Source: an uncultured Erysipelotrichaceae bacterium (GTDB lineage Bacteria; Bacillota_I; Bacilli_A; RFN20; CAG-826). From it: a DNA stretch of 59,287 nucleotides. A program made the translations under genes and the position numbers. Shown here one piece after another: positions 20,723 through 23,815 of this stretch. How positions within the stretch are numbered: the first letter of the stretch is position 1; every line of letters begins with the position of its first letter. The DNA lies in the NCBI GenBank assembly GCA_902800355.1, contig CADCEE010000012.1, positions 1 through 59,287 on the forward strand, written 5' to 3'. The notes beneath the pieces are model-generated. The model ran no database searches, had not been told where the DNA came from, and saw nothing but the letters and a program-made list of their open reading frames with translations.

Positions 20723-21610
20723 TTATTTCTTTTTGTTTTTATATCCATACGCTTCTAATGAAGCGTCGTCGTTACGCCAATCTGATTGTACCTTCACAAA
20801 TAATTCTAAATAAACGTGTTTATCTAATTGTTTTTCTATACTTTGTCTAGCTTTTTGACCGATTAATTTGATGCGTTTACCACCACTACCAATCACTATT
20901 CCCTTTTGGGAATCTTTTTCAACGATAATCGAAGCTACGATATGCACTGGTTTAGCTTCATAATCGATCTTGTTAACATAGACTGCAATACTATGTGGTA
21001 CTTCGTCTCTTAAGATATTTAAAGCTTTCTCTCTAATGATTTCTTTAATCTGGAAAACTTCATCTTTATCGGTGATTTCTTCTCCAGGATAATATTCTGG
21101 GCCCTCTGGAAGGAGATTTTCCACTACTTTGATGAGCAAGTCCAAATTGAATCTTTCGCTTGCGACAGTGTCAATAAAGTGGCTTTCTGGGAGTTTTTCT
21201 CTATAAACTTCCTTTAACTTTTCGACTTTATCAATTCTCGCTTGGTCAATTTTATTAAAAACAATCACTAAAGGAGCGTTTTTTATATCTAAATGGTCGA
21301 GTAGATATTGATCTCCCTCTCCAAAAGGTTTAGAAGCATCCACCACTAAAATATTCACATCAGCGTCATGGGCGCTAGAATAAGCCATCGCATTCATTTC
21401 CTCTCCTAATTTTGCATGAGGCTTATGAATACCAGGAGTATCTATAAAGATAATTTGTGAATTTTCTCCCCGATATATACCTTTAATCACATTTCTAGTG
21501 GTTTGGCTTTTATCGGTAACAATAGATATCTTATGGTTGATAAGACCATTTAAAATGGTCGATTTACCAACATTAGGATGTCCTAAGATGGTGACAAATC
21601 CGGATTTCAT
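20723..21610 (-). CDS. era: GTPase Era
   Basis: GTPase that binds the 3' end of 16S rRNA and takes part in 30S maturation. G motifs are visible: GHPNVGKST (residues 10-18), the switch text QTTRNVIKG, DTPGIHKPH and NKID (about 120). The C-terminal KH domain shows GIVIGSGGKRIKLIGQKAR. At 295 residues it is complete. Its ATG overlaps the cdd stop by one base, so it is probably coupled to cdd. Confidence 0.95.
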   Translation of the reverse strand: MKSGFVTILGHPNVGKSTILNGLINHKISIVTDKSQTTRNVIKGIYRGENSQIIFIDTPGIHKPHAKLGEEMNAMAYSSAHDADVNILVVDASKPFGEGDQYLLDHLDIKNAPLVIVFNKIDQARIDKVEKLKEVYREKLPESHFIDTVASERFNLDLLIKVVENLLPEGPEYYPGEEITDKDEVFQIKEIIREKALNILRDEVPHSIAVYVNKIDYEAKPVHIVASIIVEKDSQKGIVIGSGGKRIKLIGQKARQSIEKQLDKHVYLELFVKVQSDWRNDDASLEAYGYKNKKK

Positions 21611-22011
21611 TATTTAAGATCGTCTCCAGAGAAAGCAAATGGGAGAAGTTCATCAACACTAGTTTCTTTTTCGTCTCCCTTAAGATTAGACATATATATA
21701 GGAGCTTCTCTAGGAAAGAGTTCACTAATCACTTGACGACACGCTCCACAAGGGGAACATGGCTCGTCAGTATCTGCAGATAAGGCTAAAGCCACAAAGT
21801 CTTCCTTTTTATAGCCATTCATCATCGCATTATATAACGCATTTCTTTCAGCGCACATACATAATGGATAACTGGAGTTTTCCACATTAGCACCAACAAA
21901 GACTTTTCCGTCTTTAGTTAATACTGCGGCTCCAACAGCGAAATGGCTATAAGGAGAATAAGATAAGCTCCTTGCTTCTTTAGCTTTGATAATTAATTGA
22001 TTCTTGTCCAT
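21610..22011 (-). CDS. cdd: Cytidine deaminase
   Basis: Pyrimidine salvage enzyme converting cytidine to uridine. The tetrameric zinc enzyme signature is intact: C53-A-E55 (CAERNA) with the catalytic glutamate, and PCGAC with C88 and C91. The substrate-binding text SHFAVGAAV and NVENSSYP is also present. At 133 residues it has the standard short form. It sits between ybeY (4 bp upstream) and era, as in Bacillus. Confidence 0.94.
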   Translation of the reverse strand: MDKNQLIIKAKEARSLSYSPYSHFAVGAAVLTKDGKVFVGANVENSSYPLCMCAERNALYNAMMNGYKKEDFVALALSADTDEPCSPCGACRQVISELFPREAPIYMSNLKGDEKETSVDELLPFAFSGDDLK

Positions 22012-22498: not shown

Positions 22499-23716
22499 TC
22501 ATTCCACGGGATTATTCTTAATAGACAAATCCATATAATGAAGTAATTTGGCCAATTGGTTATTATATTCTTCACTTTGTTCTGAATATTGCATCAGCCT
22601 AATAAAATTATCTTTTAGATAAATAGAGATACAAAGATAGAATATAACATAGGTAATGTTAACAACATGAGATACCGCCATAATAGTAATAATACTCATT
22701 AATAAAGCGGTTATTTCTACATATGTTAAAGCATTTTTAAATAGTCCTAGTTTATATGCTCCTTCATGAGCGGCATTTACTACTGAACGGAATTGAAATA
22801 CATTCTCAACATTTCTAATAACTTCTTCTTTATCCGCTATTTCATCATATTTATTTTTTTGATATGGAAGATAAACATAAACATGAATGATAGCGAGTAA
22901 CAAAGTTAAGAAGACATAAACTAAGTTTACTGTGTTATTCATCACTAAGACAGCGGTGATAAATATCGAGATTAATACTGTATAAAGTAGATTTGGAATA
23001 ATTGTTAAAGCAACATAACGATATTTTTCCATCACTTCAAAGAAATCATAAAACTGTTCTTTTTCAGCGTTAATTCGATAATTAAAAATATTATCATCCA
23101 TTCTCTGCATAGCAGATATCAGGTTTTTCCTAAACATAATCTCAAAGATAATGAATAAAGATAGAAAGATAATCGGGACAAAGAAATAAGAATTAGCGTT
23201 AATAAAATACATTCCTACCGCTAAAGAAATAGAACTCACAATTTGCCAAAGCGGAATTGTTATTTTATCCCTTTTATCAATGAAATCATTGATTTGAATG
23301 TCACACTTCACCTTTTGATAGCCTTTTTCTTTATTGACCACCAGCGCTTTATGGTCCCACTGGCTATAAAAGATTTCTCTTAGGAGTTTTCTTTTGCCTA
23401 TTTCCGGATCGTAGATTGTGACATATTTCCGGCTCATTGCTAAAACGAGAACGCTATGTTTAACTCCTTTTCTTTTTTCAAGTGTGACAATAAAGGGATA
23501 TTCTTTATTCCTTTCAATTTCATTTGATCCACTAATACGGATACCTGATACGTCCATATGATAATTCGCGGCGATTTTCTTTAAATCCATAAAGCTATAT
23601 GGTTTATCCTCGCCCTTTAAAAATAGATAGTTCTTGTCATGATGATAATTGGCCAATAACATCTTTAGACAAGTGAAGGCACAATCATGTTGGCCGACTT
23701 GGGATATAAAGTACAT
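22499..23716 (-). CDS. C39 peptidase domain fused to a six-helix exporter domain, no ATPase
   Basis: Residues 1-120 form a papain-like C39 peptidase, the domain that cleaves leader peptides in bacteriocin exporters. The catalytic set is visible: C12 in GQHDCAFTC, H87 in GVKHSVLV and D103 in YDPEIG. Residues 145-380 hold six hydrophobic helices, like the membrane domain of type I ABC exporters. The protein then ends at residue 405, where an ATP-binding domain of about 230 residues would be expected. No such domain or precursor peptide is seen nearby. AAAGGAGG precedes the ATG. Function unknown; peptide processing or export with a partner encoded elsewhere is an inference. Confidence 0.8.
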   Translation of the reverse strand: MYFISQVGQHDCAFTCLKMLLANYHHDKNYLFLKGEDKPYSFMDLKKIAANYHMDVSGIRISGSNEIERNKEYPFIVTLEKRKGVKHSVLVLAMSRKYVTIYDPEIGKRKLLREIFYSQWDHKALVVNKEKGYQKVKCDIQINDFIDKRDKITIPLWQIVSSISLAVGMYFINANSYFFVPIIFLSLFIIFEIMFRKNLISAMQRMDDNIFNYRINAEKEQFYDFFEVMEKYRYVALTIIPNLLYTVLISIFITAVLVMNNTVNLVYVFLTLLLAIIHVYVYLPYQKNKYDEIADKEEVIRNVENVFQFRSVVNAAHEGAYKLGLFKNALTYVEITALLMSIITIMAVSHVVNITYVIFYLCISIYLKDNFIRLMQYSEQSEEYNNQLAKLLHYMDLSIKNNPVE

Positions 23717-23815
23717 TTTTCCTCCTTTGTAGAGAAAGGTCCCTACATATAATAAAGACTGGAAAAATCGCCAACCTTGCGAAAAAAATTTTAAAAAGTT
23801 GTCAAAGAAAATTAA

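Follow-up and report, generated by a model that had tools for sequence, protein, structure and literature searches.

The window, the whole stretch of 59,287 nucleotides analysed here, stems from an uncultured Erysipelotrichaceae bacterium with a genome of 1.14 Mb in 32 contigs and contains a gene for a C39 peptidase/membrane protein within a group of conserved housekeeping neighbours (Table 1). The open reading frame recognised there by the first-pass annotation is real, but its strand had to be corrected, since the gene runs on the minus strand and the plus strand is riddled with stop codons. A strong Shine-Dalgarno sequence (AAAGGAGG, read from 23728 to 23721) lies 4 nt upstream of the ATG, and ybeY, cdd, era and recO follow downstream on the same strand, which agrees with the ribosome site and the linkage to ybeY-cdd-era reported before. 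Because the gene combines this strong Shine-Dalgarno sequence with a preceding hairpin after dnaJ and a gap of 27 bp to ybeY, the arrangement suggests that it is the head of a ybeY-cdd-era-recO unit.

Table 1. Positions of the C39 gene, its parts and its neighbours in the window.
Feature	Position	Strand	Basis
Terminator-like hairpin between dnaJ and the C39 gene	23816..23833	.	sequence
Shine-Dalgarno AAAGGAGG	23721..23728	-	sequence
ATPase-less C39 peptidase/six-helix membrane protein, 405 aa	22499..23716	-	ORF, Pfam, relatives, AlphaFold2, Foldseek
Peptidase C39 domain, residues 2-131	23324..23713	-	Pfam PF03412, E 8.8e-20
Catalytic Cys12	23681..23683	-	kept in 34/34 relatives
Catalytic His87	23456..23458	-	kept in 34/34 relatives
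Catalytic Asp103	23408..23410	-	kept in 33/34 relatives
Six-helix membrane domain of ABC-exporter fold, residues 148-375, inner loops shortened	22592..23275	-	AlphaFold2, Foldseek to PCAT1, loop lengths, hydropathy
ybeY, directly downstream of the C39 gene	22016..22471	-	conserved neighbour, immediately 3' of the C39 gene in 36/38 order loci read
cdd	21610..22011	-	named from sequence and conserved order
era	20723..21610	-	named from sequence and conserved order

Peptidase_C39 was the sole Pfam domain above the cut-off in the window protein, with an E-value far beyond chance. The catalytic Cys, His and Asp named in the first-pass annotation are indeed present and conserved, and Gln6 is as invariant across the 34 aligned relatives as Cys12 and His87. 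The six membrane helices described earlier were recovered as six hydropathy peaks and in an AlphaFold2 model (27 sequences, monomer; pLDDT 89.9), where six long helices come after the peptidase. Foldseek searches with this model returned PCAT1 structures as the best PDB matches, with E-values of about 1e-12 and alignments spanning both the peptidase and the membrane domain. After TM6, no ABC ATPase domain was found by Pfam (no ABC_tran match) and the stop codon follows within about 25 residues, so the protein ends where the nucleotide-binding domain should begin, as had been stated.

To look for the same pair of domains elsewhere, as had been proposed, we searched related genomes. A single-sequence search detected relatives in 38 of 59 of them, and with a profile the ATPase-less form was matched in 253 of 279 genomes across the order (141 of 150 when only good ones are counted), a count in which some of the weakest matches, from beyond the main families, may belong to other peptidase-containing ABC exporters (PCATs). 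All frames listed from this search were shorter than 500 aa, the ATPase-less form itself measuring about 370-430 aa. Comparisons with two close relatives gave a dN/dS of about 0.10 over the full length and of about 0.08-0.09 when only the membrane domain was considered; the value is about 0.1 in peptidase and membrane domain alike. The loss of the ATPase is therefore ancient, order-wide and selected for, and does not represent damage in the source genome. In two slot proteins (L040 of genome G001, and L165), the called frame lacks the beginning of the C39 domain, reflecting a frameshift, an odd start codon or a real loss. A separate ATPase-less C39 membrane protein of 429 aa is encoded away from ybeY in genome G041 (L120, 1238-2527); its inner loops are normal or near-normal, and it adjoins an importer-type ABC gene set.

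When the profile was run on the rest of the class, most of its best matches free of internal stops proved to be full-length exporters, with about 630-760 aa. Frame lengths of mollicute-type rows were disregarded in this search, since TGA interrupts them; the loci of these genomes were read with TGA as Trp. In one family (f20), 8 of 8 loci read have a C39 exporter of full length, its ATP-binding motifs intact, directly before ybeY-cdd-era, and mollicute-type genomes carry a C39 exporter in, or adjoining, the same slot before ybeY. In a tree of the peptidase and membrane domains, which contains long branches, all ATPase-less rows formed one clade (support 100/99) and joined the slot exporters from f20 and mollicutes in one group (99/82), apart from both the f17 exporters described below and the other C39 exporter of the source genome (contig C15). 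That second exporter is a full C39 exporter paired with another ABC exporter (L076, 9291-13652), and the pair adjoins two short STAS-like genes and a SpoIIE-phosphatase gene. The first-pass annotation had held that orthologues with a fused ATP-binding domain would mark the gene as truncated here; such full-length orthologues do occur in the same slot elsewhere, but the truncation does not follow from them, the loss being ancient and shared across the order.

A second form of ATPase loss was found in the mollicute slot family f11. In six of its proteins (L118, L119, L122, L164, L165 and L166), the C-terminal region lacks Walker A and the signature motif and shows no usable Walker B, whereas the ATP-binding motifs of the other members are intact. 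A Pfam scan of five of the six gave no ABC_tran match in any of them (L118, L122, L164, L165 and L166), and ABC_tran was matched in L117, L171, L172 and L173. Because NCBIfam model NF045998 aligns to almost all of L118 and L164, and because a model of L118 aligns along PCAT1 over 706 columns, this region is, as judged from alignment and modelling, a decayed ATPase domain. The annotation of these six 'ABC transporters' as ATP-driven is thus probably wrong. Since a single clade of ATPase-less and decayed rows was not rejected by the AU test (p 0.33), the case for two independent losses is carried less by the gene tree than by the family assignment, f11 having members with intact motifs as well as decayed ones.

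In agreement with the earlier remark that no double-glycine precursor is seen, neither a Pfam search for class IIc families nor the small frames next to the C39 gene in 35 of the 38 order loci yielded one, and none was accepted from a leader-motif DNA pattern scan of three genomes, although short peptides are easily missed by such scans. In family f17, a full C39 exporter is followed by two small double-glycine peptides (L107, L108, L110-L116), several of these loci lying near rpsU-yqeY. The two peptides tested from L107 matched no Pfam family, and the f17 genes possibly represent a conserved two-peptide system. Two profiles built on these peptides matched the order weakly, reaching E-values no better than 0.004 and 0.019, and in the source genome they gave a single weak match for profile A2 (E 0.09; G000:C1:91847-91918; with an internal TAA) and none for profile A3. 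We treated these matches as noise. The proposed search of the genome for small double-glycine peptides yielded no accepted candidate. Two further proteins were discarded as substrates, namely a membrane protein of 212 aa, whose GG motif is not kept in relatives and which is confined to the genus, and a protein of 68 aa ending in GGG, which by eye resembles a ThiS/MoaD-type sulfur carrier.

Our preferred reading, to which we assign a probability of roughly two in three, is that the window protein works as a C39 processing peptidase which is anchored in the membrane and independent of ATP, and that it is the syntenic descendant of a PCAT once sited in front of ybeY. Because the ATP motor was lost throughout the order while the cutting site and the adjacency to ybeY were retained, the protein is probably a membrane-anchored protease now. 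Along the branch leading to this order, the nucleotide-binding domain was lost and the two cytosolic coupling loops were shortened, with selection continuing to act on both the C39 cysteine peptidase and the membrane domain with its six helices. Conservation, synteny, phylogeny, the missing ATPase domain, the shortened loops and the predicted fold are computational findings; from there we infer a catalytic enzyme that is probably homodimeric in the membrane and would work without ATP: a leader or linker of the substrate would dock on the cytosolic C39 domain and be cut by Cys12-His87-Asp103, with Gln6 acting for the oxyanion, although catalytic residues are no proof of activity. The membrane domain may anchor the enzyme, hold a hydrophobic segment of the substrate, or pass the product into or across the membrane without ATP. 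Of the 'new intramembrane processing protease' suggested earlier, the processing protease thus stands as the most likely function; 'intramembrane' is the wrong word, since the catalytic site sits in the soluble N-terminal domain, and the protein is only partly new, as a variant derived from exporters of a known family.

As the whole membrane domain is retained, some transport could persist. A passive or proton-motive-force-driven exporter, which cuts and exports its peptide without ATP, would account for the selection on the membrane domain being as strong as that on the peptidase, but we consider it unlikely, because the outer loop between TM1 and TM2 has also shrunk from about 28 to 15 residues in the ATPase-less form and because none of the substrate searches, whether by small frames, f17 profiles, class IIc families or leader motifs, produced a peptide to be exported.

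The conserved membrane domain with its ABC-exporter fold would also fit an exporter half that borrows a nucleotide-binding domain encoded by another gene, as the first-pass annotation had offered as its second option. In exporters of this fold, the coupling helices are carried by the inner segments between TM2 and TM3 and between TM4 and TM5. With lengths depending on the alignment, the TM2-TM3 segment measures 52-53 aa in every ATPase-intact protein, as opposed to medians of 41 in the ATPase-less and 45.5 in the decayed proteins, and the TM4-TM5 segment 76-79 aa as opposed to 55 and 65; in all 34 aligned relatives, the loops that dock the ATPase are shorter by about 12 and 24 residues. A separate ATPase was sought by listing the ABC ATPase matches of the source genome and comparing the readable frames with PCAT ATPase domains. 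No orphan exporter-type ATPase was found in this genome, its PCAT-type ATPase domains all being fused to membrane domains, and the best stand-alone match was one of an adjacent pair read as EcfA-like on contig C10. Likewise, no ATPase gene was recognised beside the C39 gene in the loci read, where neighbours beyond the reference genes are not all annotated. Because the cytosolic docking loops are shortened in both groups lacking a functional motor and no orphan exporter-type ATPase was found, we regard a borrowed ATPase as improbable.

A different role has been proposed for protein 0401 of JCVI-syn3A, the minimal cell. This protein is described as homologous to the sublancin transporter, with a C39 domain and without a double-glycine peptide; it was tentatively assigned to lipoyl import and transamidation to PdhC, and its gene was proposed for removal (PMC6609329). 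The neighbouring MMSYN1_0400 is a likely counterpart of the protein-deglycase YraA (PMC4993169). Because this YraA-like gene next door matches the order of the f11 loci, where a DJ-1/PfpI gene (PF01965) is followed by the C39 gene and then ybeY, 0401 appears by its neighbourhood to be a member of the ybeY-slot family. An importer/transamidase of lipoyl peptides was put forward to explain lipoylation after the loss of lipoyl ligases (PMC6609329), but the lipoyl acceptor E2 of 2-oxoacid dehydrogenases (PF00198) was found in only 1 of 41 order genomes, one in which the single-sequence search did not detect the C39 gene, so that E2 is missing from all carrier genomes tested; lipoyl transfer is therefore not the conserved function, and we give this role very little credence for the window protein. 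A decaying pseudogene or an assembly truncation, which the presence of the ATPase domain in the ancestral proteins might suggest, is refuted to near certainty by the order-wide conservation of the same boundary, the near-invariant active site and the dN/dS of about 0.1.

We tentatively extend the preferred reading, at slightly below even odds, to the slot as a whole: the ybeY-slot protein would be an ATP-independent membrane processing peptidase derived from an exporter, whose ATPase was lost at least twice, by deletion in the order and by decay in the mollicute clade, whose substrate is a conserved protein instead of a bacteriocin, and of which JCVI-syn3A 0401 is the same enzyme. An exporter family can apparently drop its motor and keep protease and channel throughout a bacterial order. 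For a JCVI-syn3A gene retained without explanation, this offers the testable reading of a protease with a dispensable ATPase, lipoyl transfer to PdhC being contradicted as a conserved role, and it cautions that the mollicute annotation 'ABC transporter' can mislead about ATP use.

Compared with PCAT1 and the ComA-type PCATs, which export bacteriocins and pheromones, the window protein shares the Q-C-H-D C39 domain and the predicted six-helix membrane domain, but differs in lacking the nucleotide-binding domain with its Walker A, signature and Walker B motifs, and in its short coupling loops (41 and 55 aa vs. 52-53 and 76-79 aa). No double-glycine peptide was found for it beside the gene or by family, profile and motif scans, which easily miss short peptides. 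The f17 genomes, with a full C39 exporter and two small double-glycine peptides, give a picture of the working system. The stand-alone C39 peptidases FapD and FilB are ATPase-less like the window protein, which matches their models with 30.8 and 18.4 bits, below the cut-offs of 330 and 475. Its best NCBIfam match is NF045998, the Mbov_0121 family of peptidase domain-containing ABC transporters of mollicutes (35.7 bits vs. a cut-off of 500), as is that of 10 of 10 slot proteins scanned, and intact mollicute orthologues reach 758 (L167) and 555 (L173). Members of this family possess the ATPase domain missing from the window protein, but share with it the slot before ybeY (in the mollicute loci) and the tree group, making the two orthologous by position and tree. 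JCVI-syn3A 0401 is likewise a C39 protein like that of the window, with a neighbour matching the f11 gene order; in the clade to which 0401 is related, as placed by neighbourhood, the ATPase domain is present without ATP-binding motifs, whereas in the window protein the whole domain is absent.
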